A stretch of 64,000 nucleotides of DNA from Fidelibacterota bacterium. GTDB taxonomy: Bacteria; Fidelibacterota; UBA2242; JAOZSR01. This document shows, piece after piece, positions 16,401 through 47,100 of the stretch (the stretch's first letter is position 1; the number at the start of each line of letters is the position of its first letter). The notes under the pieces are model-generated. The model saw only the letters and a list, made by a program, of their open reading frames with translations. It was not told the origin of the DNA and made no database searches. The translations under genes and the position numbers were made by a program. The stretch spans positions 1-64,000 of the forward strand of contig JAOZSR010000004.1 of the NCBI GenBank assembly GCA_029939575.1, read 5' to 3'.

Positions 16401-19400
16401 TCAGTTTTTTTCTAACTGTTTAATAAACCTTATTATTCCTCTCAATTCTTTTTCAATTTGTGAAATATTAAATGAATCTGCAGCAATCAATAGTTTTTCT
16501 GCAGAACGAGATATTGGATTGACTTTATATTTTTGACCGATTTTTTCTAATTGCTTACATACATTTTTAATATCACCAATAATAAGTGTATCCTGTAATT
16601 CAACAATATATGGAAGTATTTTATCCTTTAGAATTTTTCTTACTTCCGGAAAATTTTCAATCTCTTTAATATTGAAAGTTTCTGTTTTATTCTCTGTTTC
16701 CTTATCATCATCTACGATCGTATAGGGTATATAATCACTGATTTTTTCATACAAGATTTTTATATTTATGGGTTTACTTAGATATGCGGAAAAGCCGGCC
16801 ATCATGTTCTTTTCTTTTTCTCTTTGTCTAACTGAAGCGCTTATTGCAATTATTGGAATATGAGCGGTTCTGGAATTATTTTTTAATTCTCTGGTAGCAT
16901 CAATACCATTCATAACTGGCATGCGAATATCCATTATAATCAAATCAGGCATATATTCCTTAGCAATTAAAAGAGCCTCTTTCCCGTTAATCGCCATTTT
17001 AACATCCAGATTTTTCTTCCTTAATAACTCACCAATTACATCCCGATTTGATTCAATATCATCTGCTATTAATATCTTAGAGTTATTAAATACAATATTC
17101 TTAGGCAAACTTTTTTGCTCTTTTTCCTCCCGAACCACATTATCAAAATAATTTAATTCATTCAAGAAAATATCAAAGGTGCTACCTTTACCCGGATTAC
17201 TGCTTACTGTAATTTTACCCTGCATAATTTCTATTAGTTTTTTACTAATCGCCAATCCTAAGCCTGTACCACCAAAACTTCTTGTGCTTTGTCCTTCTGT
17301 TTGTTGAAAAGATTCAAAGATTCCGGGTAAATCACTTTTGTTGATTCCAATACCGGTATCCTGGATTGAAATTTTTAAATCTATACTTTTCCTTCTTTGG
17401 TTTAGTATTATCACTTTTATTTTAATATGTCCTTGAGAGGTAAACTTAACAGCATTGCCAACAATATTTAATAAGACCTGCCTAAGCCTGGTTTCGTCTG
17501 TTTCAATTGCGGTTGGTAAATTATCATCAATTTCAATAATCAATCTAAGATTTTTATCAGCAATTTTTTTATAAAATATTCGTTGAATTTCCTCAATAAT
17601 GATTCTCAAGTCAATTGACTCATTTTCAATATTCATTTTGCCGGCTTCGATTTTTGAAAGATCAAGGATATCATTGATAAGGGTCAACAAACTCTTTCCT
17701 GCTATTTGAATAGATTTTAAATAATTTTTTTGATTAACTCCCTTTATCATTCCAGATAATAATTCACTAAATCCAATAACAGCATTTAGAGGAGTGCGAA
17801 TTTCATGACTCATATTTGCCAGAAATTCAGTTTTTGCTTTATTTGCCTGTTCAGCCTCTTCCTTGGCTTTTTTTAATGCCTTTTCTGATTCTCTCCTTAA
17901 TAAAGCAACTGAAGCCTGATGAATGAATGTCTGTGCTATATCCTTTGATTTGTCATTCAATTTTTCAGGAAGAGCAAATACCACAATACCTAACAATTTA
18001 CCTGAATGAATGATTCCAGAGCCATATACTATCTTAATATTTAGTAATTTTCGAGCAAGTTTACCAGACAAACGTGAAATTAGTGGTGCCATTTTGGCAT
18101 TCTCTTTTTTCTTTATAATCTGGATAGTTTTAGTATGAAAAGTTTGGGCAAAATTTTCTAATCCATAACCGGTATATCCACAGGGATCTCTTCCTATAAA
18201 TTTAATTAATCGGGATAAGACTTTATTGACACCATCTAAAGACTGAATTGTAAAGGAATTATTTTCTTCGTCACAGGATGCTACAGAAACTATTCCTTTT
18301 TCTACAATATGCATAAGTTGCTTACTAATCATTTTATAAATATTTTCATCAAAAGGAATTTCAATAAAATCTAATGCTGTTTTAGATAAAAATTTTATAT
18401 TTTCAATTCTTTCCCGTTCTCTTAACTCTGCCTTTTTTCGTTTATCAACATCACGAATATTTAATATAATCCCATGAATTACCGGATCATTAAGATAATT
18501 AGTACCAACTGCTTCAAGGGTAATCCAACCTCCTTTTTTCAATTTATGCCGATACTCAACAGTTATCCGTTCTCCCGGCTTTCCAAGAACTTCCTGAAAT
18601 GCAACAGCCATTTTTTCTCTATCCCTAGGATGAACAAAATCAAAACCACTCCGCCCTGTTAATTCGCTATTAGTAAAACCGGTAATCCTTTCTACAGACT
18701 CACTGCAGAATATTTCTCGTCCTTCCTGATCTAAAATAACAATCATATCATTAGAGTTTTTAACAAGTTTTCTAAAACGCTCTTCACTATCAATAAGTGC
18801 TTTTTCTACTCTTTCTCTTTCTGATATTTGTTTTTCAAGTTTAGCATTTATTTTGGCTAAAAATCGATTTTTTTCTTTTAGATTTTTTGTACGTCCTTTA
18901 TATGCTACGATTCCAAAAATTAGTATAGTAATAATTACTAATACCTGAATAATTCTATTTTCCCATAAAGGTGGTGTTACTATAATATCTAATTTTGTTA
19001 TTTTATTATTCCATTGTCTCTGATTATTGGAAGCTCTAACCATTAACGAATAGCTACCACCAGGTACGTTGGAATAAGTAACTGTACGATTATTTGCATC
19101 AGTATAAATCCAATTCTGATTAATTCCATTCATTTTATATGCATATCTATTCTTTTTAGATTCAACAAAATCCATAGCAATAAATTCAAAGGAAAATACA
19201 CTCTGTTTATATGATAATTTTATCTTTTCAGTTTCATAAATATTTTTTGTTAATATTGTACCTATTCCATCCATATATCCAATCGGAACTGATCTGTTAA
19301 AAATTTTAAAATCAGTAATATATACCGAGGGAATATGACTATTAATTTTCACACTGTCGGGATAAAAAGAGATAAACCCATTAGGACAGCCAAAAAATAT

Positions 19401-21374
19401 TTCTCCTTCTCGATTTTTCATTCCTGGAAGTGTAGAAAACACATTGTCATTATATCCACCAATCACTCTTGCAGGTAATCCATCAGAAAATCCAAAAGTA
19501 AAAAATTCGTTTCTAATTGGGTTAAATTTTGTCAACCCGTTTTTTGTACCAAACCATAAATATTTACCATCTTCAATAATCTGAAAAACAATATTATTTG
19601 ATAATCCTTCCTTAGTAGTAAAAATTTTAAATTCCATTTCATTAACCGGAAAATTAACATTTGTCTTATTTAAGCCGATATTGGAGCCAATCCATAAATT
19701 TTCTTTATCATCTATATGAACAGCCCATAATACATCGGAACTTAAACTGGATTTGTTTTTCGGATTTGCATTAATCATCTGATAAACACCGGTTTCTGGC
19801 TCAAATCGAATCAATCCCCGGGAACTTGCTATCCAAAAAATCCCACTATCATCCTCACAAATATCACGAATAACATCAAAATATGGATCTTCAAAATTTT
19901 CAAAGGCATAGTGCTGAAAAATATTTTTCTCTCTGTCAAACATGGTAAGACCAAGTCTGTCAAACCATAATCTCTTTTGTTTATCTTCGAAAATAAAATA
20001 ACAAGCTCCTTTATCTATGACATGCAAAGTATCAGTAACGATGCCTAAAGAAATCTTAACAAATTCGTCAGAACCACTTTTTTTCTGATATATACCTTCA
20101 TCAAAAATACTAACCCATACATCTCGATAACTATCTTCGAAAACAAAAAATATATTCTTTCCATCAAGAAAATGTGTATACTCTCCTGTTTTTTCATTAA
20201 AAAAATCAAGGCCATCTTCTGTTCCTATCCATAGACCATTTTGTGATTCAGAAAAATCTTTCACAAGATTATTGCATAATGTATTATTTAATAAGGGATT
20301 TCTGGTAATATGCTTAAAACTTCCAATATTGGTCAACCATACTTTATCAATACCGGTAGCGTTATGCCCTACCCATAAATTATTTTGCTCATCTATAAAC
20401 AGTGTCTCTAAATAATCGTTGCTAAGAGATCTTATATTATCCGGTTGATGCACAATTTTTGAACATAAATCTTTTTTATAATTATATACTATTAGACCAT
20501 TTTCAGTTGCAAAAAAAATATTTTTGTTTGGCCCTTCTATAATATCCCGAGTAATTAGAATTTCATTGACCTTGGGCTGATTTTTTAAATCAAAAAATCT
20601 GGTTTCGCGGTTAAAAATTCCCACTCCCTGAGATGAAGCAACCCAAAAATTATTAAAACTATCAATAAAAATATTATCAACTTCATTAGAAGGAAGTCCT
20701 TTATGACTATTTTCATCAAAAGTAAACCATTCTGTTTTATTAGATTTCTGATCAATTGAAATAATACCATGTTTTCTGGTACCAATTAATAAAACTCCTG
20801 CCTCATCAATTAAAAAAGTGGAAATTTCGATCTCTTTAGTCATTTCTCCAATGTAAAATTCCAAATCAAAGTAATTACAGTTCAGATTTACACTATCAAT
20901 CCACATCAAAGAAGTATTAGTAGCAATCCATATTCTGTTATTTTTATCAAATAATATTGAATTGGCATCTCTTTCATTCTCCGGGAAAAGAAAGTGAGTA
21001 AATGTATTTGTTTGAATATTATACTTATTCACTCCATAATTTGAACATATCCAGATATTATTATCATTATCAAGGAGTAATTTTGTGAGAAAATTATCTA
21101 ATAAACTATTTATATTCCCCGGTTCTTTTAGAAAAGTCTTAAAATCAATTCCATCAAATCTGTTTAAACCATTTTCAGTGGCAAACCAAAGAAATCCATA
21201 TTGGTCCTGTACAATATCAACAACATTGCCATCAGACAACCCAATTCCCGGAGTAATATGAGAAAAATTATAGGTTAAACTCTGAGAAAACAAGAAACTA
21301 CCAAAAAACAATAATTTAATAAGAATTACCCATTTTCTAATATTATCTTTCCAACGATTGTTACTATGGGTCAT
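16401..21374 (-). CDS. Hybrid sensor kinase: periplasmic two-component-regulator propeller repeats, Y_Y_Y domain, TM, PAS, GAF-like, HisKA-HATPase, REC, C-terminal helical tail
   Basis: 1657 aa; repeated LWIGT/WFAT...GLNRF propeller blades, [51 protein letters not shown]. Confidence 0.93.
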
Positions 21375-21404
21375 CTTAATTTCCTGTACAAATTGATATT
21401 TATT

Positions 21405-24400
21405 TTAATTGTTTTCATTTAGTTTGGTTTCTATTTTAATAATTCCGGATAGCATCTTTTCTATTCCCGGAATATCAAAAGTTTCTGAATATTTATTAAT
21501 TTTTTTTGAAAATATTATTAATTGCTCAGCGTTATATTTCTCTCCAATCATACCAATTTTTTCACTAAATGCTTTTACTTCTGATATTATCATTGAATCT
21601 AATAATTTTTTGGCTGAAGGAATTAAATCATTTTTAAATAATATAACCAAATCGCTTGACGCTCTGAATTCAATATTTTCCATTGAAACCTGACTTTTCT
21701 CGGCTACCTTATCTTCCTTGATTTCATATTTTAAAAATTTCGTGAGCTGTGAATATAATTTATTAACATCAAGTGGTTTTTTAAGAAAACCATCGAAAGC
21801 ATAGTCAGATTTCAACATACTATCATCTAACAACAATGAAGATGATAAAGCAATTACCGGTATTGACATATTTCCACTTCGCTTTTGAATTTTTTCTAAA
21901 ATATCTTTAGCCTCATCAATCTCAAGACGAACATCTATAATAATTATGTTAGGTTGATAATCTTGAATTAATTGTAGCATGTTCTCTAAATCATCAGTCG
22001 CATACACATCAAGATTGACTTTGTTTAGTAATCCTTTAATCACTTCCCTGTTAGATTTTACATCATCCATTACCAATATACGAGATTTGTTAAAAATTAT
22101 ATTTTCAGTTGTATAGTCCGGTTCATTTTTTAGCATTGTTTTAATTACCGGGATTTTCACATCATATAAGTAAACCTGAAAAACCGAGCCCTGACCCTGT
22201 TTAGTTCCTAACCCAATGCTCCCATTCATCATTTCTACCAATTTTTTACAAATTGACAATCCAAGTCCGGTACCACCATATTTCCTTGAATTTTGCCCAT
22301 CTCTTTGTTGAAAAGAATTAAAAATTTTCCCCTGATCTTCCTCGGGAATTCCAATACCGGTATCTTCAACAATGATTTTTAAATCCATTTTATTCAAATG
22401 TTCAATATATAACTCTTTTACCAGAGAAATTTTAATACTCCCTTTTTCAGTAAATTTCACAGCATTCCCGACAATATTCAGGAGTACCTGCCTGATTCTG
22501 GTTTCATCCAATAACAGAGTTGATGGAATATCATCTTCAACATCAATGATCAGATCTAATTGTTTTATTTCAAGTTTATTCTGAAAAATCTGGGATATTT
22601 CACTAAGAATCATTCTGGGATCAACCGGTTTATAGTGAATATCCAACTTTCCCGCTTCCATTTTTGAAAGATCAAGAATATCATTAATTATTGTTAAAAG
22701 ACTTTTACTTGAAGTTTTAATGGATGTTAAATAACTTTTTTCTATGTCATTACTGACAAGTCCGGATAATAATTCACTAAATCCAATAACAGCGTTTAAC
22801 GGTGTTCTGATCTCATGACTCATATTAGCCAGAAATTCGGATTTGACATGGTTGGCTGCTTCTGCATTTTCTTTGGCAATTTTTAATTCATTTTCACTCT
22901 TTTTTCTATCAGTAATATCAATCACTGTAACCAGCCCTGCCGGTTTTCCTTTATAAATTGTTGAAATTCCACTTACATATATCCAGCGTTCCTGACCATC
23001 TTTTCTGAATATTTTAGCTTCATAATGTTGATCAGTCTTTTTGCCCGATTGCCGCAAGGCTCCTCTCTCCTTGATCACTTCAATATACTCCGGAGAAAAA
23101 ATATCCCAAAAATTCATCCCAAGCAATTCCTCTTTGCTATATCGAGATAATTTACACGCAGCCGGATTGGCATAAACCCATTTATCATCCTGAAAAAGCA
23201 TAATTGTCATTGGAGAGGCCTGGGCAAGATTTCTAAATTGTTCCTCACTTTCTTTTAAATCCTGTTCCATCTGTTTATTTTGTGTAATATCTCTGGATAC
23301 CCCAAAAGTACCGATAATTTTCCCCTGCTGATCTCTTAAAGGTAGTTTAGTTGTGTTAAACCAACTATAGGTGCCGTCTAATCTATTTACCCTCTCTATT
23401 TTTCCAACAATACCTTCACCGGATTTAATTATTTGTTGTTCTTCTTTTAAGGCAATATTACTATGCTCTTTGCCAAAAATATCCAAATCTGTCATTCCAA
23501 TCAAACTCTCTGGTTCTAACTCACATCTATCAGCAAATGCTTTATTTACACGAATAAACCGACTTTTTTTATCTTTATAATATATTATATCCGGAATATT
23601 ATTCATTAATGTAGAAAAGAGATATCGTTCATAAAATAAATTCTTTTCCATTTTTTTTCTTTTATCAATATCTCGGGCAATCCCCAATACATATTTTTTC
23701 CCTTCAATTGAAACAATTTTAGTTCTGATAGATACATTTATTTCTGAACCATTTTGCTTGCGTAAAATTAATTCATCTGGTCCTGTGGAAAGTCCTTTCT
23801 GGTTTTTCTTTAAAAGTTTTAGTGCCAATGGCATTTCAGACACGGGAAGTAGTTTTAATTTGAATAAATTTTTCCCTAATAACTCATCTTTTCTATATCC
23901 CATCATCTGTTCGGCAGATTTATTTGCATCTGATAAATTTCCATTCATATCATTCAAATAATAAGCATCCGGAGCATTATCAAATATTATTTTAAACCTT
24001 TCACGGCTCTTTTCTAATTCCTCAGCAGCCTTTTTATGTTTCAAAATTATTTGCTCTAATTTGATATTACTTCTAACCAGGTCATTAGTCTTTGTCGAAT
24101 ATAATTTTTCCAGACTGCTTTTTTGTGCATTTAACATATCCTTATGTTTTTCCACTGCCTCAATATTTTTTTTAAACCTTAAGAACATAAAGGAAGAATA
24201 AGAAACCAGGATAATAATAAACCCAAATATACTCAAATGCTTCATAGCAAGTATATCAAACACAATCAATGTCTCGTATATAATTGTAATTAATAAAAAT
24301 ATAAGCCCAGCCAATAAATATTTCGCACCTTTTCGTCTATTTTTGATTGCAAATAATAAAATGTGAAAATAGTATAGAAAAATAACGATAACAATCCACA

Positions 24401-25406
24401 TCCAGAAGTTAAACAGATCAGTATGAAAGTCAGCCGGGGTAAATACAACAATAAAAATAAAAACCATGCTAATCCAATAGACAAATTTGTTAATATATCT
24501 CAACTGCTCCCTTGGATAGAGTTTAGTAAAAAACATTACACCCAGTGCAGGTGTCATGTAAGTCGGCAAAAATTCCAGTTTAATCCATAATTCCCAAGGG
24601 ATATTAAAAAAGCCCTGAATTAAATCATAAATAAAAATACTTCTAATTACTATTAAAAGACAGATTACTCCAAATATTGAATTTGTACTTTCTTTTTTCA
24701 GAGTTATTGAACCTGCAATATGAAAAATGCTGAGTAAAAATAAAAACAATGTGAAAAAAGAAAATAATTGGAATTGCTGCTCATACATTTTTTTTATATT
24801 CTGCTCTGTTCCAAGAAAAATATTTGTTCTTATGCCACCTTTGAAATAATTATAATTTGAAATTTGTAGAAGTATTTCAATATCACTCGTATCTGCAGGA
24901 AAATATTTCACCTGTTGGGTAAATTTTGACTGCATCGTTTCATTTGATGTACCAACTACACCGTTTTCTAAGATGAATTTGTCATTTATCCAAAGTTTAT
25001 AAGCTGAAAAAACACGTGGAATTTTGATAGCTAATACATCGTGAGGCTCTTTTAATTTGCATTGTAATCGAAATGTAGCAAATCCTTTTTCATTTAATAA
25101 CAAACTATCAATTTTTTGATTATTCCAGATGCCGGGTAAATTCATATAACCTTTTTGACTATATAAACCCGCTTTAACTTGATTGGGAGTAAGCAACTGT
25201 TTCCAATAAAATTCCCATTCTCCATCTAATGGGACATTACCATCAGATGCCAGGTCCCATTCACGAAGATCCAAAACTCCGGACTTTGCAATATTATTCT
25301 TCTCCTGTAAACTACATGATGAAAATCCTAACAAAATCATCAAGAGTACAGCAATAATCCAAAACTTTTGAAATAATTCAGGTCTATTAATTTTCTTGTT
25401 CTCCAT
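21405..25406 (-). CDS. Hybrid sensor kinase with 7TMR-DISM-like sensor, multiple PAS, HisKA-HATPase, REC, C-terminal helical tail
   Basis: [53 protein letters not shown]; start MENKKINRPELF at 25406 preferred over the listed ORF start (25508). Confidence 0.9.
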   Translation of the reverse strand: MENKKINRPELFQKFWIIAVLLMILLGFSSCSLQEKNNIAKSGVLDLREWDLASDGNVPLDGEWEFYWKQLLTPNQVKAGLYSQKGYMNLPGIWNNQKIDSLLLNEKGFATFRLQCKLKEPHDVLAIKIPRVFSAYKLWINDKFILENGVVGTSNETMQSKFTQQVKYFPADTSDIEILLQISNYNYFKGGIRTNIFLGTEQNIKKMYEQQFQLFSFFTLFLFLLSIFHIAGSITLKKESTNSIFGVICLLIVIRSIFIYDLIQGFFNIPWELWIKLEFLPTYMTPALGVMFFTKLYPREQLRYINKFVYWISMVFIFIVVFTPADFHTDLFNFWMWIVIVIFLYYFHILLFAIKNRRKGAKYLLAGLIFLLITIIYETLIVFDILAMKHLSIFGFIIILVSYSSFMFLRFKKNIEAVEKHKDMLNAQKSSLEKLYSTKTNDLVRSNIKLEQIILKHKKAAEELEKSRERFKIIFDNAPDAYYLNDMNGNLSDANKSAEQMMGYRKDELLGKNLFKLKLLPVSEMPLALKLLKKNQKGLSTGPDELILRKQNGSEINVSIRTKIVSIEGKKYVLGIARDIDKRKKMEKNLFYERYLFSTLMNNIPDIIYYKDKKSRFIRVNKAFADRCELEPESLIGMTDLDIFGKEHSNIALKEEQQIIKSGEGIVGKIERVNRLDGTYSWFNTTKLPLRDQQGKIIGTFGVSRDITQNKQMEQDLKESEEQFRNLAQASPMTIMLFQDDKWVYANPAACKLSRYSKEELLGMNFWDIFSPEYIEVIKERGALRQSGKKTDQHYEAKIFRKDGQERWIYVSGISTIYKGKPAGLVTVIDITDRKKSENELKIAKENAEAANHVKSEFLANMSHEIRTPLNAVIGFSELLSGLVSNDIEKSYLTSIKTSSKSLLTIINDILDLSKMEAGKLDIHYKPVDPRMILSEISQIFQNKLEIKQLDLIIDVEDDIPSTLLLDETRIRQVLLNIVGNAVKFTEKGSIKISLVKELYIEHLNKMDLKIIVEDTGIGIPEEDQGKIFNSFQQRDGQNSRKYGGTGLGLSICKKLVEMMNGSIGLGTKQGQGSVFQVYLYDVKIPVIKTMLKNEPDYTTENIIFNKSRILVMDDVKSNREVIKGLLNKVNLDVYATDDLENMLQLIQDYQPNIIIIDVRLEIDEAKDILEKIQKRSGNMSIPVIALSSSLLLDDSMLKSDYAFDGFLKKPLDVNKLYSQLTKFLKYEIKEDKVAEKSQVSMENIEFRASSDLVILFKNDLIPSAKKLLDSMIISEVKAFSEKIGMIGEKYNAEQLIIFSKKINKYSETFDIPGIEKMLSGIIKIETKLNENN

Positions 25407-25989
25407 TATCATCATTAAAAATTTTATTTTTTGCTTTTTTATACCAATCAAATTCACCATACAATTCTTCAGCACAATCAGGACAAATTCCATGTGTAAA
25501 ATTAGCATCTGAATGATTAGTGATATAAACTTCTATTTCTTCCCAATAATTTTTATCCTGACGAATTTTTTTACACTTAGCACAAATTGGGATCATACCT
25601 CTCAATTTTTTCATTTCAACATGCGTACTAACCCGAGCTAACAATTCTGCTGAATTGAAAGGCTTTGTAACATAATCAACCCCGCCAACTTCAAATCCTT
25701 TGACAATGTCTTCGGTTTCAGTTTTTGCAGTAAGAAAGATAATCGGAATGTGCTGGGTATCATACTCTTGCTTAATTTTTTTACACACTTCATAGCCATC
25801 CATTCCCGGCATCATAATATCCAGGAGAATTAAATCTGGTTTTATATTACGCAAAAACTTAAGAGCTTTTTCACCATTCATTGCAATTGCTGTTTCATAG
25901 CCATTCTGTTGAAGCATACTTCCCAGAACCTGCAAATTATTGGTATTATCATCAACTACTAAAATTAAAGGTTTCTTTACTTGATTCAT
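25387..25989 (-). CDS. Response regulator with C-terminal Cys-rich (CxxC...CPDC) extension
   Basis: DLILLDIMMPGMDGYEV receiver, then ICAKCKKIRQDKNYWEEIEVYITNHSDANFTHGICPDCAEEL. Confidence 0.9.
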   Translation of the reverse strand: MNQVKKPLILVVDDNTNNLQVLGSMLQQNGYETAIAMNGEKALKFLRNIKPDLILLDIMMPGMDGYEVCKKIKQEYDTQHIPIIFLTAKTETEDIVKGFEVGGVDYVTKPFNSAELLARVSTHVEMKKLRGMIPICAKCKKIRQDKNYWEEIEVYITNHSDANFTHGICPDCAEELYGEFDWYKKAKNKIFNDDNGEQEN

Positions 25990-26563: not shown

Positions 26564-27496
26564 TTATTCGATAAAATCGGCTTCCATAAAATCACTTAAA
26601 TTAAATCGACCTTCTTTTTCTAATTCCCTGGCTTTATCAAGAATTTTTTTCTGGGCTGCCTCAACTTTCCGACGAGGCTGCGGCCCTTCCAACAAATCCA
26701 TCTCATCCTCAAGTATTATTTGTGTACGCTGCGGAAGGCAGTCTATAAACTTATCAATTAAATCATCATCTTTGCCTTTTAAAGAATAAGCCACATCAGA
26801 AGACTCTACGGATTTTAAAATTTCAGACAAATAATCTTTAGGTAGTAGTATCAAATCATCAAAAGTAAAATGATAATTTTTTATTTCTTTGGCTACTCCG
26901 GGTGCTTCTTTCTCTAAATGTTCCATAAATCTTTTTTCGTCTCTTGGTCTCATTTTACCCAGAATATTTGCAAGATTTTTCCCACCTCCCCTGGAAAATT
27001 CCGACTTTTTCGGAAGAAAATGCGATTTTTCCTTAAGTTCATTGGCAATACTAACAACACCTTCTAAAGGGATATCATGCAGATCACCCATCTCAGTTAA
27101 AACTTCAGGCTGAATTGCCGGGTCTAATCCCTGCAAAACAGATACTTGTCTCTCAATATCCAATTGGGCAATTGTTAAACCTGCAATCCTGGGTCTTTCT
27201 TCGGCAATAAGATAGATTACCTGTTCATCAGTCAATTTTTGAAGAAAATCAAAGGGTTTCTTTGTTTCTTGATCAGCTGGTTTGAGTTTATCAGAGATAT
27301 AACTAAAATAGAATTCTTCCATTACCTCTTTTTTAACACGAAAGGGAATTGTACTGATACTCTTCATATGATGTCTGATTTTATTGACCTTGCTCTGATC
27401 CATACCTTTAAATAGTTGAAGAGCTAATTTAGTGCCAAGCGTTTTAAATAAGATGGCTGCTTTATCCAATCCATTTAATTCTTTAAAGTCAACCAT
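26564..27496 (-). CDS. FliG-like flagellar motor switch/rotor protein
   Basis: N-domain LDKAAILFKTLG; EERPRIAGLTIAQLD (EHPQ-type); GGGKNLANILGKM linker; C-domain FTFDDLILLPKDYLSEILKSVESSDVAYSLKG...LPQRTQIILEDEMDLLEGPQPRRKVEAAQKKI. Confidence 0.88.
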   Translation of the reverse strand: MVDFKELNGLDKAAILFKTLGTKLALQLFKGMDQSKVNKIRHHMKSISTIPFRVKKEVMEEFYFSYISDKLKPADQETKKPFDFLQKLTDEQVIYLIAEERPRIAGLTIAQLDIERQVSVLQGLDPAIQPEVLTEMGDLHDIPLEGVVSIANELKEKSHFLPKKSEFSRGGGKNLANILGKMRPRDEKRFMEHLEKEAPGVAKEIKNYHFTFDDLILLPKDYLSEILKSVESSDVAYSLKGKDDDLIDKFIDCLPQRTQIILEDEMDLLEGPQPRRKVEAAQKKILDKARELEKEGRFNLSDFMEADFIE

Positions 27497-28914
27497 TACA
27501 CGTCTCCTTCTTCTTCAGATGATTCTTCATCGGTTTCCAACCAGCTATTAATAATATCAACTCCTTTAGTTGAATTGCCGATTGACATGGATATTACTGA
27601 TTGTTTTAGTCCTTTTACTTCTTCTTTTTGCTGAGATATTTCTTCTTCGGAAATTTTCTTAACTTTTCTTAATTCCGGTTTTTCAGGTCTGTCATAGTCT
27701 TCATTTACTTCCGGTGATTGATTCCCAATTTTCTGTGATGAAGTTTTTGCAACTGGTACAGTATTTTCAATTTGTGAATAATTAGCAGGTTGTACAGGAG
27801 GGCGAGTTCGGTTTTTTAATAATAAAACAATCATGAAAACCAATAATAGGGCTATAAATAATAGTAAAGCCCAAATTGCAAAGTCTTTCCCGGAAAACCT
27901 TGATGGTGGCTCTGTTTCCATGACACCTTTATCCAGTTCTGCTAATCTGGCGTTACTCTCTGTTAATTGTTTACGCAATAACTCTAATTCCTGTTCTCTT
28001 TCATCAGTTTCTTCTATTACAATTTTTTCTTCTGTTTCACTGATTTCCGGTTTATTTCGCTCATTTTTCAAATCGTCAATCTGTTTCTGTAATTTCGAAA
28101 TCCTGATTGAATCCTGTTTCATTGTATATTTTTCAAATCTTCTTTGTTTTTCTAATTTAGCATCCAATTCGGCACGTTGTTGTCTCTCTTCAAGATTAGA
28201 TAATTTTTCCGCAATATTTTTCAGAATCACATCCTCATTGCTTTTCTTTTTGGTTTTTCTATTAAATTCAGAAGTCATAATACTTAAAACATCACCCCGA
28301 GATCTATCATAATGTGCTGCAACTGAAGCAACCTCGCGCACATTTTCTATTACTTCCGGAGATATGCCATCTTCTAGAATTATTTTAATCTCCTGGCTCT
28401 TAACAACCGGTACTCTGATTCCTGATGAATGTTCTACATATATTTTTTTAGGTGTGCCTGATCTTTCCTGTACATTTTGAGTCAGAATATCTTCAGCCTC
28501 AGGCGCTGTTTCTTTTACCAGGGCTTCAGGTGTCTCAAATCCGGGTAAAGGCATAGAAACATCATCAACTTTAGCTTTATTATTATCCATATCGTCAGTG
28601 CTTTTGGTTGAAACCTCAGAATAAGATTGTTTTTTTTGTTCAATACTTGTTCTTACATTCTTTCCGTCTTTATCAAGATATACAAAATCAATTTCAATAT
28701 TTACATCTACAACATATTTTATGTCACCCAACAATTTGCCAAGAGCAGTATCCACTCTTTCCCGTAAACTATTCTCAAGTAACAACTTTTGAGATAAATA
28801 AGAAAGTTGATTATTTTGAGAAAATAAAAAGACTGAAAAAATTGATACCATCATCAATATAAATATTAGTGGATTGCATTGATTTCTCTTATTCTTGTTC
28901 ATAGAAACTCCCAT
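27496..28914 (-). CDS. FliF-like protein: RBM3/beta-collar-type domain, coiled coil, TM, FliG-binding-like C-terminus; no RBM1/RBM2
   Basis: SLRERVDTALGKLLGDIKYVVDVNIEIDF and PEVIENVREVASVAAHYDRSRGDVLSIMTSEF match the FliF C-terminal domain pattern; FAIWALLLFIALLLVFMIVLLL TM; terminal GVDIINSWLETDEE. Confidence 0.72.
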   Translation of the reverse strand: MGVSMNKNKRNQCNPLIFILMMVSIFSVFLFSQNNQLSYLSQKLLLENSLRERVDTALGKLLGDIKYVVDVNIEIDFVYLDKDGKNVRTSIEQKKQSYSEVSTKSTDDMDNNKAKVDDVSMPLPGFETPEALVKETAPEAEDILTQNVQERSGTPKKIYVEHSSGIRVPVVKSQEIKIILEDGISPEVIENVREVASVAAHYDRSRGDVLSIMTSEFNRKTKKKSNEDVILKNIAEKLSNLEERQQRAELDAKLEKQRRFEKYTMKQDSIRISKLQKQIDDLKNERNKPEISETEEKIVIEETDEREQELELLRKQLTESNARLAELDKGVMETEPPSRFSGKDFAIWALLLFIALLLVFMIVLLLKNRTRPPVQPANYSQIENTVPVAKTSSQKIGNQSPEVNEDYDRPEKPELRKVKKISEEEISQQKEEVKGLKQSVISMSIGNSTKGVDIINSWLETDEESSEEEGDV

Positions 28915-28919
28915 GTAAA

Positions 28920-29600
28920 TTATCCTATTGTTAAAAAGAATATTTCTACTCTTCTATTTTGTGATCTTTGCTCAGATGTTGCATTTGCTTCATCTACAGT
29001 ATTTCCCTGTGCTCTTGGTTGAGTGTCAGAATACCCAATCGCCTGAAAGCGATTAGATTGAATTCCCTGGGAAATAAAATATCTAACTACTCCGGATGCC
29101 CTGGATGATGAAAGTTCCCAGTTTGATGGAAATGTCGCTGACCTGATTGGTATATTATCGGTATGACCTTCAATCGCAATAGGGTATACCGATTTTTTTA
29201 TCATACTAACAAATTTTTCTAAAAAGGGATAGATTGCAGGGTCTAAATTGGCACTACCTGAAGCAAAAGATATTTCACTTGGAATTTTGATACAAACTCC
29301 ACGTGCACTGGTCTCAACCTCTACCTGCTCCTCTAAATTTTGTTCTTTTATTACATTAACAACTTCTGTATAAATTTCTGCTAAGGAAAATTTTTCTACC
29401 TTTTCCTTTTTCCCAAGTGCCTTCCCAACTGAATCACTAAATTGTTCCAATTTAACCGGATCAATTGTGGACATAGCAAAGAGCAGGACAAAAAATGTCA
29501 TAAGCAGGGTCATCATATCACCATATGTAATTAACCATGGTTCCTGTTCGTCTGATTTTTTCTTTGACAATTTTCCTAATTTACTTTCTTGGCTACTCAT
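28920..29600 (-). CDS. MotB-like stator protein with OmpA peptidoglycan-binding domain
   Basis: PWLITYGDMMTLLMTFFVLLFAMS (conserved proton-pathway Asp) and EGHTDNIPI...SNWELSSSRASGVVRYF. Confidence 0.93.
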   Translation of the reverse strand: MSSQESKLGKLSKKKSDEQEPWLITYGDMMTLLMTFFVLLFAMSTIDPVKLEQFSDSVGKALGKKEKVEKFSLAEIYTEVVNVIKEQNLEEQVEVETSARGVCIKIPSEISFASGSANLDPAIYPFLEKFVSMIKKSVYPIAIEGHTDNIPIRSATFPSNWELSSSRASGVVRYFISQGIQSNRFQAIGYSDTQPRAQGNTVDEANATSEQRSQNRRVEIFFLTIG

Positions 29601-29615
29601 ATTACATTCTCCTGA

Positions 29616-30401
29616 TTATTCCGGTGTTTTCCATTCGCGAGGACGTAAAAAAGAATTTAATTTTTCACGAACAATGATTGGATGCTTCCTGGCTTGTAAT
29701 AAAAGTACACCTTCAATTAACATAGTTTGCAAAATATTTTGCTGATCAATTCTGTTTTCAAATTTCACAGCCATCGGATTAAAAATTAAGTTTGCCAATA
29801 TTGTTCCATAAAATGTTGTAATTAATGCTGCTCCCATACCTTTTCCAAGTACAGACATAGGGTCTTCACCACCTCCGGCAATTTCACTCATCCCAAATAG
29901 CATGACTACCAAACCAATCAATGTTCCAATCATACCAAAAGCCGGAGAGTATTTCCCCATAGTTCTTAATACATTGGCGTCTGCCTGTTCCCGAAAACTT
30001 CTGTTCTCAATCCGGGTTTCCATAATTACCCTGATTTCTGATAACGGATATCCCTCGATAACCATTTGCAAACCATCTCGTAAAAACGGGTTATTGACCT
30101 TACTAAGTGCATTTTCTAATTCCTGCATACTTTTCCTGGCTTTTGGAGCCAGTTCAACAATATCTTCCAGTTGCTGAGCCATTTTTACTTCATTCTTCTT
30201 AAAAACCGCTAAGGAAGACCGCACTAACCCAAAGACCTGTTGAAAAGAAAAACTTAATAAAGTAGCGGCAAATGATCCGCCCGCAACAATTAATAAACTT
30301 GGAAGACTTGCAAATATCATAAAATTTGGCGTCAACTGAAAAATTCCAAGTAAAATTAATCCTACTCCCGATATTATCCCTAATAAACTTGCAATATCCA
30401 T
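29616..30401 (-). CDS. MotA-like stator protein
   Basis: YSPAFGMIGTLIGLVVMLFGM and GKGMGAALITTFYGTILANLIFNPMAVKF. Confidence 0.93.
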   Translation of the reverse strand: MDIASLLGIISGVGLILLGIFQLTPNFMIFASLPSLLIVAGGSFAATLLSFSFQQVFGLVRSSLAVFKKNEVKMAQQLEDIVELAPKARKSMQELENALSKVNNPFLRDGLQMVIEGYPLSEIRVIMETRIENRSFREQADANVLRTMGKYSPAFGMIGTLIGLVVMLFGMSEIAGGGEDPMSVLGKGMGAALITTFYGTILANLIFNPMAVKFENRIDQQNILQTMLIEGVLLLQARKHPIIVREKLNSFLRPREWKTPE

Positions 30402-30414
30402 AAAATAATCCCCT

Positions 30415-31764
30415 CTAGTGTTTTTTCTTGCCGGCGCTATGTAAACGATTTTCGTTCATAGCTCGTAAAATATTTCTGACATCATCATATTCCGGATCGA
30501 TTTTCAGAGCTAAATTCCAATTTATTGTCGCCCGGTCTATATCCCCTAATTTATAATAAATTGATCCCCTCCTGGCATAAGCAAGAGCAAGATTTGAATT
30601 TAATTCTATAGCTGCTTCAACCTCCTGCAAGGCTGAACGGTAATCATTAACATAAAAGTATCTTAAAGATTTTGATAAATGTTTCAATGCCAGATTAATA
30701 TTATGATCCATAGCATGTTTTGCTAACTTGACTGTTCTTACAGAATCTTCAAGAATTGATGTTTTTTGCCTCAGTTGTGCAACCTGGCTGGTCAAATATT
30801 TAATTTCAGTTTCATAAATTTCCAGAGAATCTCTAAGCTTTGCTATTTGATAATCTGCTGCTTGTAATGTAGAGTCCAACTTCCTGGCAAATTCTTCCTC
30901 AAGGTCAAGTATCATTCTGGATTTGCGGTCAACCATACCCTCTAAAACCCGTTTCTTAGCATCTCTTGGCTTCAGACGCGGAATCCTAAAATCAAATCCC
31001 AGGCTCAAACTTGGATTTGATGATAAATCCGAAATATCCAGGTCTTTTTCTCCAAAATTATACAATTTCGTAATATTATTAATACCTAACATCAGGTTAT
31101 AATCGTGGCTTAACGGCACTTTAACTCCAAAATTAAGAGCCCCGCCGTCAAATTCACCAACTATATCAACTCCGCCTAATTCTTCCCTCATGTTTGTATG
31201 AAAAAGCATTCCTGCAAAAACTCCTGCAGTAGTATCGGCAAATCCGGTTGCTAATCCTCCGGTACCAAATCCCATATAAGTAAATAGTTTATTTTCTCCA
31301 ATCTGTTTCTCATTACTAATTACTCCAAAAATCGATAAGGTTTTTGTATCAAGGTCAACATTTTTATTACCTTGTTTTAAAACCAAATCATTAATTCCGG
31401 CTGAAAAACTAATATCACCATAAACAAATAGCCTCTTTTGAAAATGTAAACCAAACTCAACTGGAGCATCACTACTGACACCCTGGATTGTTGTCATTCC
31501 TATTTTAAAAGCATCTGTGATATCCGTTTCCAGAAAAACCGCTTTGGAAAAAAGTGTGTCCCGGAAGCCATAGGTATCAGCACAAAATCCAGTTCTGAAA
31601 ACATAGGGTGTCCGATAAATACTGCTTGATGGAATTTTCATCATATAACCAGGTTTTGAAAATGCTACTCTTGTCACCTGGGCATTGGTTGCTCCAAGTC
31701 CAACTATAAAATATATAAGAAACATTAATAAAGCTTTTCTCATTTGACTAAGCTCCGTTTTCAA
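30415..31764 (-). CDS. Outer-membrane beta-barrel-like protein with coiled coil and C-terminal TPR repeats
   Basis: Signal peptide; alternating hydrophobic beta strands to about residue 260; long heptad region; LALAYARRGSIYYKLGDIDRATINWNLALKIDPEY TPR. Confidence 0.75.
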   Translation of the reverse strand: MKTELSQMRKALLMFLIYFIVGLGATNAQVTRVAFSKPGYMMKIPSSSIYRTPYVFRTGFCADTYGFRDTLFSKAVFLETDITDAFKIGMTTIQGVSSDAPVEFGLHFQKRLFVYGDISFSAGINDLVLKQGNKNVDLDTKTLSIFGVISNEKQIGENKLFTYMGFGTGGLATGFADTTAGVFAGMLFHTNMREELGGVDIVGEFDGGALNFGVKVPLSHDYNLMLGINNITKLYNFGEKDLDISDLSSNPSLSLGFDFRIPRLKPRDAKKRVLEGMVDRKSRMILDLEEEFARKLDSTLQAADYQIAKLRDSLEIYETEIKYLTSQVAQLRQKTSILEDSVRTVKLAKHAMDHNINLALKHLSKSLRYFYVNDYRSALQEVEAAIELNSNLALAYARRGSIYYKLGDIDRATINWNLALKIDPEYDDVRNILRAMNENRLHSAGKKKH

Positions 31765-32486
31765 TCTTCTACCAGTTTCAGGCTCTTTATTTTCAAACTA
31801 GCCAATCTCGCTAATTTAGTTCCTGGGAACCGATCAATCAGACGTTTATAAAAAATATTTGCGTTCTCAATATTATCGAGATTCTGATAAGTTACTGCAC
31901 TTAAAAATAGTGCATCTCCAAATTTTTCAGCAATTGGATATTCGGCAACTTTCTTTAGATATTCCAGAGCGAGATATTTATCATTCATTTGGATGTGACA
32001 ATATCCAATCCAATAATAAGCATCTCCAATACTTGCTGATGGTATTTTACTGGAAACTGCCCTTGTAAAATAATCAATAGCCACTTCATATTTATTATGA
32101 ACAAAAGCATCATGCCCTTTTTTATAAAAATTCAATCCCTCTTGTTTGGAGTAAATTTTTATATCCGAAGAAATCGAGGAATAGGGAGAAAGAAATATTT
32201 TCTGCTTCAATTTTGATATTTCATTGGCTAAAGAATCATTTTCTTTGGATAATTTTTCAATTTTGAATGCTGTTAAAGTTTTATTTTTGTTAATAGCCAT
32301 ATAGAGGGAGTCCAGTTGAGCTTGAATCGTGCTCAATCCTGAGTTAGCAACGCCAATTCCACCTTCAGGGGGGACAGACTCCCTCGTTGGCTCAATTTTT
32401 ATTCCTAAATCATATAAAAATTCCGGTTTTCCTGCTTTAGCAGTATCCAATTCCTGAGATATGACAGATATAGGGAACATGAGCAA
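31761..32486 (-). CDS. CpoB/YbgF-like coiled-coil/TPR periplasmic protein
   Basis: Coiled coil then KGHDAFVHNKYEVAIDYFTRAV...DAYYWIGYCHIQMNDKYLALEYLKKV...FPGTKLARLA. Confidence 0.78.
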   Translation of the reverse strand: MLMFPISVISQELDTAKAGKPEFLYDLGIKIEPTRESVPPEGGIGVANSGLSTIQAQLDSLYMAINKNKTLTAFKIEKLSKENDSLANEISKLKQKIFLSPYSSISSDIKIYSKQEGLNFYKKGHDAFVHNKYEVAIDYFTRAVSSKIPSASIGDAYYWIGYCHIQMNDKYLALEYLKKVAEYPIAEKFGDALFLSAVTYQNLDNIENANIFYKRLIDRFPGTKLARLASLKIKSLKLVED

Positions 32487-32512: not shown

Positions 32513-33292
32513 TTAAAATTTCTCCCGATTAATTATATATTCATTTGTTTTATCAATTAATTGACTATCTGGAAATAATTTTTCCATTTCTTTAAAAATC
32601 GATATCGCTTTTTCTTTATTCCCCAATTGAAGATAACTCATTCCAATTTTAAATAAAGCCGCGTCTTCTTTATTACCATCTCCAAGACCATTAACCTTTT
32701 TAAATTCTTCAATCGCGCGTAAAAATTTTCCAAGGGAATAATAACATTCACCTAACCAATATTGAGCATTATCTATAAGAGGATGATCTAACCCGGAAGA
32801 TACAAGAAAATGGAACTTCTCGGCACTGACCTCATATTTATTATCAAAATATGCACTTAGAGATTCATTATAAATACTGCGAAACTCAGAATCTTTCATT
32901 TTTAAATCTTCATGAGAAGTCTTTACAGCATTTGTATCTTTTATAAAAATCGAAGTTTCCAGGCTTTTCATTACTTCCCTGGAGAGTCTTTTTTCTTCCT
33001 CATAAGCCTTTAATAAGGAACGAAGGTTTTCTATTTCTGTTTCCTTTTTCCCCAGACTATCTACCAGGTTCATATTATAATTTTTTGTTTTGGAAAGATC
33101 CTTTTTAATGAGTTCCAGTTCATTCTCCTGAATTGTCAAAGCAGATCTAAGATCTAAAATTTCAACAGCTTTCTTCTCCAACTCTACCTTTTTATCAGAA
33201 TATTCCGGATCAGTCTTGTTATTATTTTCCTGGGCAATAGCTGCGGAAAATATAATAAAAAAAATGAAAAGATAATAAGAGCGAATCATCAT
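32513..33292 (-). CDS. CpoB/YbgF-like coiled-coil/TPR periplasmic protein (second copy)
   Basis: Signal peptide, coiled coil, YWLGECYYSLGKFLRAIEEFKKVNGL...KIGMSYLQLGNKEKAISIFKEMEKLFPDS. Confidence 0.8.
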   Translation of the reverse strand: MMIRSYYLFIFFIIFSAAIAQENNNKTDPEYSDKKVELEKKAVEILDLRSALTIQENELELIKKDLSKTKNYNMNLVDSLGKKETEIENLRSLLKAYEEEKRLSREVMKSLETSIFIKDTNAVKTSHEDLKMKDSEFRSIYNESLSAYFDNKYEVSAEKFHFLVSSGLDHPLIDNAQYWLGECYYSLGKFLRAIEEFKKVNGLGDGNKEDAALFKIGMSYLQLGNKEKAISIFKEMEKLFPDSQLIDKTNEYIINREKF

Positions 33293-34281
33293 TTATACTG
33301 CTCCCATTCAACTGTATATGAATATCCAACAAAGGAACCAAAGGATTTAGGTATTATTAATTTAAATTTTCCGGTTGCTCCGGGTAATAGAGAATTATTT
33401 GTTGTAATACCTGATCTTTCAAAAGTAAAATACGAACCTTCTATAAAACTTGTTTTATTTTTAGTATCTCCACTCCAGTTTTTCCGAAATACAAAATTAA
33501 CTTTGACAAAATCAGCTCTTTTTGAACCAATATTTTTAACTTCTCCGGTAAAAATCGTATTCCCTGTACGGTCTTTTACTTCTTTAATATTCCCAAGTAA
33601 AACACAATTTGCATTAGGTGTTTTTTGGGTTTTTATGTCCGCCGGATTCTGGCCTCCCGATATATACTGCTGTTGAATCATTTTAGTAATTGATGGTGTA
33701 TCTTCGAGATCAACCGTAATATCATCAGGCACATATTGCTCTGCTGGTTTTTCGGGAACATTGGTAATAATTCTAACAATACTCTCTTTTTCCAAAGTCA
33801 AATATCCAATTAATGTCTCAACTTTGACAATGTTTTCATCCTGAAAAACGACTTTCCCAAAAACTGTAGTACCATTTTTGGTCACAATTTCCTTATCATA
33901 CATGGCCAGTGGATTGGTCCACATTTTACTCTTTGACTGGATTTCCCGTAATTCTTTTTTCAGATGCTTAACTTCAGCGGAAAGTTTTTTAATTTCAAAC
34001 GTAAGCTCGTTGATTACATAATTCTGGTCCTCACTGGTTGTAGCAGATGGAACAGCTACAGGTTTGTGGCTACCTTCGGAACCTGTGATATTTTGAGCTG
34101 CTTCGGTTATAGTTGATTGGTCATCATCTAAGATCGGCTTCTTTTCTTCAGTTAAAGAGGTAAGTTCAACACTGGCAGAATCCGGGGTAACCTCTTCACT
34201 GGACTTAGATCGAAGTTTAAGACTGCTACAACTTAGCAAGAATAAAAAAGATACAAATAATATTAGTACTTTTGATTTCAT
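33289..34281 (-). CDS. Lipoprotein of the motor-like operon, hypothetical
   Basis: MKSKVLILFVSFLFLLSC lipobox; coiled coil; C-terminal beta-rich domain (NCVLLGNIKEVKDRTGNTIFTGEVKNIGSKRADFVKVNFVF). Confidence 0.75.
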   Translation of the reverse strand: MKSKVLILFVSFLFLLSCSSLKLRSKSSEEVTPDSASVELTSLTEEKKPILDDDQSTITEAAQNITGSEGSHKPVAVPSATTSEDQNYVINELTFEIKKLSAEVKHLKKELREIQSKSKMWTNPLAMYDKEIVTKNGTTVFGKVVFQDENIVKVETLIGYLTLEKESIVRIITNVPEKPAEQYVPDDITVDLEDTPSITKMIQQQYISGGQNPADIKTQKTPNANCVLLGNIKEVKDRTGNTIFTGEVKNIGSKRADFVKVNFVFRKNWSGDTKNKTSFIEGSYFTFERSGITTNNSLLPGATGKFKLIIPKSFGSFVGYSYTVEWEQYK

Positions 34282-44144: not shown

Positions 44145-47100
44145 TTATCGAATGAGAACCATTTTTTTGGTCATTTTATAATTTTCTGTCACAATTGTAT
44201 AAATATAAATTCCACTACTTACCTGAGAACCGGAATTATCTGTAGCATCCCAGTTCAGAATATGATATCCGGCATTAAAGTTATCATTCGTCAGTTCCCG
44301 AATAAAATATCCATTCAGATTGTAAATAAAAACTTGAACCCGTGCATCTTCCGGTAATCCAAATTTTATAACAGTTGTAGGATTAAAGGGGTTTGGATAA
44401 TTTTGAGCCAAACTATATTCATCAGGAACAGTATGTTCAGGAGTAATGGAAACCGGTGAAGCACTGACCTCCTGGGAAGAATTACTTGCATTGCCATTAA
44501 AATCAACTGACTTGATGATATAATAATAGGACTCATTGGATTGAACAGAATTATCAATATAACTTGTATCAATAGTCACTGCAAAAGGTTCTGTAATTTG
44601 AAAACCCGATGAAGTTCCACGATAAATTTCATAATAATCAAAATCCTCATCATCAATATGCTTCCAACTCAGAGTAATATCTGTTTCTCCGGCATCAGCC
44701 CGAAAATTTAACGGTGCATGTGGATGGAGATTATCAATAGAATAGCCGGAAACAGGATCAGAATAGAGAATAAAATCAGGCATATTAGTGTGTGCTACAA
44801 CTATAAAATCTGACCAAAAATTTTCTTCCGGCCCGGTATAGGCATTAGAATCAATTAATGTTGGAGAAACATAGGAATATGGTCCATATCCAATAAAGGG
44901 AACTGTTGCAATAAAATCCCACAATTCATCATGAACATTTCTCCAGATACTATATTCCTTAAAGTTGCCCCACTCCAGGTATCCACTTTGCCAGACTATT
45001 CTAACCTGTTTACCCTGATCATTTGGAACATCTTTTACAATAACAATATTCGGTGGTACTGCCTCACCCATTTCTTTTCTCAAATTAAATTCCAGATAAA
45101 CTTCTTCGTCTTCAACCCACATTGAATCAGAAGCACTCCATTCATATTGATCAGCTCCGGCATAAATCTGGTAAAGACCATTGGGTACTCCAATATTAAA
45201 ATATCCGTTAAAATCTGTCCCAGCGTAATACCATTCACCGGTCTCAAGATTTTCAACATCGATCCAGGCGTTGGGAATAGGATTCCCGGAATTTTCATCA
45301 TAAACAAATCCATATAATGTTGCACCGAATTTTTCCATAGGAACGGGAACTGCTACTGTATCATTTTCCACAACTATATTCTCTTTAAAAAAGGTAATAT
45401 AATTTTCAGCTTCTACTCTCATTATATATACACCGTTTGGAACTCCGAAAGAATAAAATCCGTTAGGCCCGGTAAATTGATGAAATCCTGTAGAATCTTC
45501 TATATTACCGATAAATACAGAAGCACCACCAATCGGGGAGTTGCTATTTTCCTCAAAAACTCTACCGGCAATAAAACCTTCAATATTTAATTTTTCCAGA
45601 TAATAATCTCTGGTAACAGTCTCGTTATCAACATATATACTATCAATTTGCATTAAATATTCTTCAGCAGCTATTTCAACCAGATAAAATCCATTTGGCA
45701 GGTCAAAATAGAAATTCCCACTATCGTCAGTTATCTGGAAAAAATCAAATTCCCAGTTATGGACATGCACTCCTGCCCATGGTAAAGGAAAATATTCCTT
45801 ATTTACATTTTCACCATATACTGTACCCTTAAATACAGCATCTGATTCTATTGAATTCAGACAAAAGTTTTCCTCTATTTCATTTTGTTGAACCTCGACT
45901 TGTCGCCATTCAGAATTATAACCATCCCGATGAACGCTCATTCCGTAGTGACCCTCCGGTACATCAATCCAATAATATCCATCTTCATCAGTATATGTAT
46001 TATTCCAGAATAAATTATTCCCAATATTTACTTCCGCATCTTCGATTGGAAAACCAGTTATGCAGTTAGTAATATATCCATACACGGCACCATCCAAAAT
46101 TATAGGATCCATAATAACATCAAAATGAATTAAGGATCCGGAAATTAATAGGGTATCTCCCCATGAATGAGAATATCCCGGGCCGTTATAATGAATTTCA
46201 TACATGCCATCAGGAAGATATAAAATATATTCTCCAGTTTCATAATCCGGCCAGGTAGAATAATGGTCTTGAGTTTCCATATTTCTGGCCATCATACCAA
46301 CATTCTCGTAAAGAGTATCACCACTAACTCCATCTATAAATGCTCCGTATAGTCCACCCTCTACTGTAATTAAATTAATATCAATACCAGTTGCTCCTGC
46401 CGGAATATTATGAAGCTCTGTCTCCAAAATAGTGCCGGGAGGCTTATCCCATACATTAATCCCATAGCCACCATCTTCCTCAGACTCATCAGCTTTCACA
46501 TGCAATTCATAATATCCAGATTCATCAGATTCGCTCTGAGTCCAGCCATAATTTTCCTGATTTTCACCCCATCTTTCATGCCATGCATCTATTGTTATCC
46601 AGGGTGCAGGAACACCATTTAAGTAAACATTACCAGAGATTGTTGCATCTGTTTCAAATAGATTAAACTCAACATAAATCGAGTCATTTGGCTCTACTAC
46701 AACCCATTTATCTTGATTCGGTAACATATAATCTGGAATAACTGTTTCGTTTATAAAATTCATCCTGTATTCTCCGGGTGGTACAGGAATAGAAAAATGA
46801 CCGCTTGCATCGGAATAATAATTATTATGAGAAAAATCATTAACACACACACCAATACCTTCAATCGGATTTCCTTCATCATCGAAAACATAACCATATA
46901 TTGCCGAATTTAATTCATTATAGATAAAATCATAACCAGTCATATCACCATTTACCCAAATTTCATAATCAGATGGATCTCCGACTAATCCATTGGTAAC
47001 TTGCAAATAATCCTGCGACATTACCTGATATTCAATACCGGAATTATTTACAGGAGAAGGTACGTTAATGAAATAATTCCCATCTGAATCAGTAAAATCA

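Follow-up and report, generated by a model that had tools for sequence, protein, structure and literature searches.

In the bacterial flagellum, the canonical FliF ring comprises about 33–34 subunits and houses the export gate. SpoIIIAG of endospore formers is a ring protein of the FliF/YscJ type with RBM domains only and a single transmembrane helix (TM); to our knowledge it has neither a FliG-binding tail nor FliG or MotAB partners. In the Bacteroidota, the GldLM motor of the type IX secretion system (T9SS) is ion-driven and acts on outer-membrane components. The Agl-Glt machinery of Myxococcus places a stator of the MotAB/TolQR type (AglRQS) in a trans-envelope complex, and the 2026 review of gliding motors that covers it mentions no FliG/FliF rotor there and names no FliG- or FliF-based motor (PMC13104615). 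The consulted parts of an article on MotAB evolution likewise name no such system (PMC12505986). In the literature searched, a FliF/FliG/MotAB motor was not described for non-flagellated bacteria or for Marinimicrobia, although subscription papers and preprints lay mostly outside this search and priority is therefore not certain.

Here we describe an operon in a genome of Candidatus Neomarinimicrobiota (Marinimicrobia, SAR406), analyzed within a window of 64,000 nucleotides (the whole stretch of DNA under study), that probably codes for a dedicated ion-driven rotary motor other than the flagellum, one that crosses the envelope, has no export gate or C-ring switch and is coupled to the outer membrane. 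With the flagellar motor it shares a homologous stator and rotor, the RBM3 domain, the predicted FliG-binding helix at the C-terminus of FliF and the peptidoglycan-binding domain of MotB. It differs in that its FliF-like protein lacks RBM1/RBM2 and a predicted beta-collar, probably lacks TM1 and carries a charged spacer, in that most carriers lack FlhA and FliM/FliN, and in its linked barrel, TPR and lipoprotein genes in place of rod, hook and filament genes. Unlike Agl-Glt, as described in PMC13104615, it holds both FliG and FliF, and in contrast to GldLM its stator is MotAB-like and accompanied by FliG/FliF.

Results

Gene order, stator and outer-membrane proteins

The operon runs on the minus strand from 34281 to 26564 in the following order:

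33289..34281, minus strand: predicted outer-membrane lipoprotein (LLSC lipobox) with a coiled-coil stretch, first operon gene
32513..33292, minus strand: periplasmic TPR protein (YbgF/CpoB-like) with signal peptide
31761..32486, minus strand: periplasmic TPR protein (YbgF/CpoB-like)
30415..31764, minus strand: outer-membrane protein, predicted to consist of a beta-barrel of about 12 strands (residues 54-262), a 77-residue helical rod (295-371) and a TPR region (375-448)
29616..30401, minus strand: MotA/PomA-like stator subunit, R89, E96, P153 and P209 conserved
28920..29600, minus strand: MotB-like stator subunit (one TM, OmpA peptidoglycan-binding domain), D28 invariant
27496..28914, minus strand: FliF-like rotor protein, 472 aa, stop codon 27496-27498 included
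26564..27496, minus strand: FliG-like rotor protein, 310 aa (FliG_N, FliG_M, FliG_C), its ATG overlapping the stop codon of the FliF-like gene

Gene order and strand were identical in 77 of 77 loci that were complete for the six core genes, in a set that holds some genomes twice because it was drawn from two collections. Median gaps between genes were 5–16 bases, and the position of the lipoprotein gene was shared by each of these 77 loci. The next genes downstream of the operon's FliG-like gene, after a gap of about 575 bases, encode a response regulator and two hybrid histidine kinases of very large size (16401-25989).

The MotA-like protein matched MotA/PomA in the PDB, and its match to flagellar PomA/MotA was far better than that to TolQ/ExbB. 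R89 was conserved in 101/101 sequences, E96 in 100/101, and P153 and P209 each in 101/101; we take these four residues to be the counterparts of R90, E98, P173 and P222 in E. coli. In the MotB-like protein the TM aspartate D28, the ion carrier, was present in 95/95 sequences, and residues of the OmpA domain were conserved as well. Since T160, T195 and T196 of the MotA-like protein are invariant and align with threonines of PomA, our guess is that the driving ion may be Na+.

Fold matches of the outer-membrane protein in the PDB were to beta-barrels and TPRs. Against NCBIfam the barrel had no confident family match, and a plasmid search with it returned TPR proteins only. No adhesin or filament was found as a fixed member of the operon.

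Domains of the FliF-like protein

The frame read earlier from the letters alone (27499-28914) holds, with a full extent of 27496-28914 once the stop codon is counted. Translation probably begins at the second ATG, at 28902, giving 468 aa, because a GGAG stands just 5' of it and the majority of relatives begin there. Numbered from the first ATG, the parts of the protein are:

28819..28914, minus strand: signal peptide (residues 1-32), predicted cleavage before Q33; [AGSN]Q in 76/89
28675..28779, minus strand: RBM3 first half (alpha1, beta1; residues 46-80), pLDDT about 86-95; Pfam and PDB profile
28420..28665, minus strand: disordered insertion at the canonical beta-collar site (residues 84-165), pLDDT 38-50 over most of it
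28537-28545, minus strand: conserved PGF motif within the disordered insertion, from the family alignment
28264..28416, minus strand: RBM3 second half (beta2, alpha2, beta3; residues 167-217), pLDDT about 94-95 over most of it
28057..28242, minus strand: charged spacer helix 1 (residues 225-286), AlphaFold model
27913..28038, minus strand: charged spacer helix 2 (residues 293-334), AlphaFold model
27808..27891, minus strand: transmembrane helix (residues 342-369), AlphaFold model and sequence
27523..27648, minus strand: cytoplasmic, predicted FliG-binding two-helix tail (residues 423-464), motif P..A..[IV][IV]..W[LM]

The relation to FliF was found by three routes. The Pfam model YscJ_FliF_C matched the window protein at residues 58-217 with an E-value of 2.9e-4, slightly under the family cut-off, and it matched 19 of 21 members of the FliF-like family (best E 1.8e-15). 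A profile of the family retrieved FliF in the PDB at 7.9e-6. In a template-free AlphaFold model, residues 46-215 followed the order alpha-beta-beta-alpha-beta, as in an RBM, and all 13 fold matches in the PDB (Foldseek) below an E-value of 1e-3 were to FliF, mostly to S-ring/RBM3 regions and also to the MS-ring. Direct hhalign comparison gave weak matches (probability 6.6-10) whether the family was set against one canonical FliF or against a profile of four FliF sequences, so the homology is carried by the Pfam, PDB-profile and fold searches. A sporulation ring model gave no match. The sequence-only reading, which had proposed a FliF-like protein with a ring/collar domain at about residues 47-217, was thus right about the protein and about RBM3. 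The beta-collar could not be retained: the AlphaFold model contains no collar strands in the insertion, where residues 84-162 are of low confidence and predicted to be disordered. Within this insertion P124 is invariant in the family and G125 and F126 nearly so, and in the second half of RBM3 the residues R193, D208 and F217 are invariant.

RBM1/RBM2 had also been reported as missing, in agreement with our finding that none of the 21 family members matched YscJ_FliF (PF01514) among the matches listed. The canonical FliF of the same genome matched both the RBM1/2 and RBM3 models, YscJ_FliF at 4e-51.

At the N-terminus, which had been read as a signal or TM segment, a hydrophobic stretch is followed by [A/G/S/N]-Q in 76/89 homologues, a pattern that resembles a signal-peptidase cleavage site. 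A cleaved signal peptide is the more likely interpretation of these sequences, though the segment could still be an uncleaved TM1. If it is cleaved, the mature protein would have one TM, like SpoIIIAG. The single TM expected after the charged segment was recovered at residues 342-369.

Between RBM3 and this TM, the spacer (residues 225-334) forms two confident helices in the model, with 46–48% charged residues. Residues 222-328 had been described as a highly charged, heptad-like coiled coil; the high charge is real (48% D/E/K/R), whereas the heptad pattern is not borne out. Hydrophobic power at a period of 3.5 residues did not exceed that of shuffled sequences in the protein itself (p 0.57) or in the average of ten family members (p 0.28), so that a coiled coil is not established. 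A helix break with a conserved proline near residue 289 is just as compatible with a helical hairpin, in which case the spacer would not necessarily lift the ring away from the inner membrane, as the sequence-only reading had proposed. The distance from RBM3 to the TM is not fixed in the family, ranging from about 43 to 210 residues. These lengths are clustered (43-46 in one family, then near 129, 160, 177 and 200-210) in a lineage-specific rather than continuous manner. By eye, spacer length had no obvious correlation with MotB length. In place of RBM1/RBM2, the spacer would connect RBM3 to the membrane.

The cytoplasmic end, formerly read as a short acidic C-terminus, proved instead to be longer, about 100 residues, and to contain two helices in the model (423-444 and 448-464) as well as a FliG-binding motif of the FliF type. 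The motif P..A..[IV][IV]..W[LM] occurred in 78 of 89 homologues, compared with 0.01 of 89 expected from shuffled tails. The window copy has diverged at the proline and the alanine of the motif (GNSTKGVDIINSWL), and canonical FliFs of the phylum have a similar ending, for example NPQQVTSLIRSWL. A PDB profile aligned the C-terminal helix to the FliG-binding end of FliF, a match that is weak alone. Hence, the FliG-binding helix of FliF is predicted to be kept in the FliF-like protein.

The FliG-like protein and natural FliF-FliG fusions

The FliG-like protein matched FliG_N (2.5e-15), FliG_M (4.1e-8) and FliG_C (7e-28) in Pfam and FliG in the PDB at up to 7e-24. The rotor-side charges were kept, with K240 (E. 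coli K264) and K/R257 (R281) each in 83/83 sequences. The FliM-docking EHPQ motif was lost throughout: its E remained in 83/83, and H and Q were replaced. The linker helix between the N and M domains was absent. In 62 of 83 operon FliGs a four-residue deletion removes the acidic loop equivalent to D288/D289 of E. coli, and the torque geometry must therefore differ in these, which make up most of the phylum; in the FliG subgroup of the window the pair is present as D264/E265.

In a phylogenetic tree, operon FliGs stood apart from the flagellar FliGs of Bacillus, of E. coli/Proteobacteria and of this phylum (support 100/100); they form one group when the rows L155 and L158, labeled canonical, are read as operon-type, and the tree, being unrooted, fits an origin from the flagellum and an older origin alike. 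MgtE resembles FliG, and frames of 450-461 aa with weak FliG_C matches were left out because their size and this similarity make them probable MgtE transporters.

The phylum also contains FliF-FliG fusions, in which a signal peptide, an RBM3-like region with an LPG motif, a TM and the FliG domains form one chain. They were found in the window's own genome (C45, L114:5580-7109), in G050 (L120:6610-8010) and in G071, G192, G215 and G216; the loci L137, L138, L139 and L140 are likewise fusion loci. Against the FliF-like family profile, the L114 fusion matched with an E-value of 1.8e-5 (probability 78) and the G050 fusion weakly. Fusion FliGs made up another group in the FliG tree (95/81). In G050 the genes after the fusion encode MotA, MotB, an FG-GAP-like protein and a PorV/FadL-like barrel+TPR protein, and at the other loci TPR proteins come next. 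We count the fusions as another type of motor within the phylum. Read from their sequences, the fusions would provide independent support for a FliF-FliG unit.

Distribution

The FliF-like gene was detected in 166 of 247 Marinimicrobia genomes (67%), and in 73 of the 96 near-complete ones. FlhA was over its cut-off in 43 genomes; 36 genomes had both and 130 had the FliF-like gene without FlhA, including G036, which consists of a single contig. Co-occurrence with the flagellum was low (phi 0.16), and that with the barrel was high (phi 0.89), with the barrel in 168 genomes, 161 of them together with the FliF-like gene, 7 with the barrel only, 5 with the FliF-like gene only and 74 with neither; these counts ignore phylogeny and many of the genomes are incomplete. 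At least one of the exceptions is due to a contig edge, the contig of G010 beginning inside the barrel gene. FliM/FliN occurred in 16 of 61 relatives, all of them FlhA-positive (16 of the 17 with FlhA), and was unrelated to the FliF-like gene (phi -0.02). The window's genome itself also holds a flagellar set, with FlhA, FliM/N, a canonical FliF and a canonical FliG.

With the barrel as query, a scan of GTDB genomes found 140 relatives, and the best 80 of these were titled Marinimicrobia or unspecified bacterium with one exception, two "FCB group bacterium" titles being included. The exception, a 1.8-kb contig in a Nitrospinales MAG (L095), encodes a barrel of 41% identity and is probably a misbinned Marinimicrobia fragment. 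A single-sequence scan of genome contigs with the FliF-like protein found no match, whereas the barrel alignment did retrieve relatives.

Discussion

In the motor that we propose, the OmpA domain of MotB would fix the MotA/MotB-like stators to peptidoglycan, and the stators would exert force on FliG-like subunits arranged as a ring; the homology and the conserved residues on both sides point to torque. The FliF-like protein would hold the FliG-like protein by its C-terminal helices, and through its TM and charged helical spacer the movement may reach RBM3-type domains, putatively assembled into a periplasmic ring. This ring would in turn couple to the barrel+rod+TPR protein, the TPR proteins and the lipoprotein at the outer membrane, with which its gene is linked and with which it may be in contact. 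We infer rotation, ring formation and contact between the FliF-like protein and the barrel from sequence. The sequence-only reading had also seen in the FliF-like protein a periplasmic drive shaft rather than the housing of an export gate. The second half of this is borne out, since FlhA is absent in 130 of 166 carriers and there is no gate to house there; an adjoining FliG partner, the conserved FliG-binding motif, a periplasmic domain of RBM3 type and the natural fusions fit as well. The drive shaft itself stays an interpretation, and the operon as a whole, with its outer-membrane partners, went unremarked in that reading. Most carriers have neither an export gate nor FliM/FliN, so the motor should build no filament, nor should it switch by CheY-P.

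What the motor moves can be proposed only tentatively: slightly below even confidence, we suggest structures on the cell surface, used to glide or attach, with surface motility or the transport of adhesins as the output. A serious rival, although an unlikely one by our estimate, is that the motor energizes type IX secretion or T9SS-borne adhesins and replaces the GldL/GldM of Bacteroidota. It is serious because SprA, the T9SS translocon, is nearly universal (60 of 61 Marinimicrobia genomes, 59 over cut-off) and because GldL was over cut-off in 0/61 and GldM found in 0/61, counts that do not prove absence since none of 14 control genomes matched either. The window also encodes, at 44145-48347, a protein of 1400 aa in which carboxypeptidase-regulatory domains are repeated and whose C-terminus is a T9SS sorting tail (Por_Secre_tail), and in G050 the fusion and MotAB lie directly beside the FG-GAP-like protein, which has a T9SS-like C-terminus, and the PorV/FadL-like barrel+TPR. 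However, SprA also occurs in genomes that gave no match to the operon (e.g. G012, G027 and G040) and thus does not need it, and no T9SS gene is a fixed neighbor of the operon. A Tol-Pal-like or division system, in which stator force on the outer membrane would serve constriction or integrity and the FliF/FliG pair would be a scaffold, is rather improbable. The TPR proteins do resemble YbgF/CpoB, and the lipoprotein and the OmpA-domain MotB could tie the outer membrane to peptidoglycan. Yet the MotA-like protein is far nearer to flagellar PomA/MotA than to TolQ/ExbB and keeps its torque residues, we know of no role for a FliG rotor in Tol-Pal, and about a quarter of near-complete genomes lack the FliF-like gene, which would be unusual for envelope housekeeping.

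Two further readings tie the operon to the flagellum itself. That it supplies a spare or auxiliary flagellar part, as a second stator/rotor set, is in keeping with the flagellar set of the window's genome and with the 36 genomes that have both the FliF-like gene and FlhA. As a general reading it is very unlikely and was rejected, given the 130 genomes without FlhA and a FliG-like protein that has no FliM-docking motif and falls in a clade of its own; an auxiliary use, as a secondary one, could hold only in flagellated species. The presence of only a subset of flagellar families would fit the remnant of a decayed flagellum, which we consider next to impossible, and rejected, in view of the invariant operon, its non-flagellar outer-membrane partners, the conserved working residues, the phylum-wide spread and the coexistence with flagellar sets.

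A dedicated trans-envelope motor thus remains our preferred reading. The operon may, as a proposal that we hold a little less than evenly, represent a categorically new kind of rotary machine across the envelope. In it a minimal FliF-FliG/MotAB motor, which shed the export and switch parts or never had them, would rotate an outer-membrane complex by way of a periplasmic RBM3 ring and helical shaft and so drive surface movement or protein secretion. It bears on a question raised in PMC12199754 and is a concrete candidate answer, namely a half-motor that is conserved, has outer-membrane partners of its own and occurs in genomes that mostly have no flagellum. Annotation pipelines may call such genomes flagellated from motA, motB and fliG. 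The phylum that carries the operon is widespread in the ocean and uncultured, and the operon shows that a FliF-FliG-MotAB motor can drop RBM1/2, the collar, the export gate and the C-ring switch, giving a testable form of a filament-less motor.
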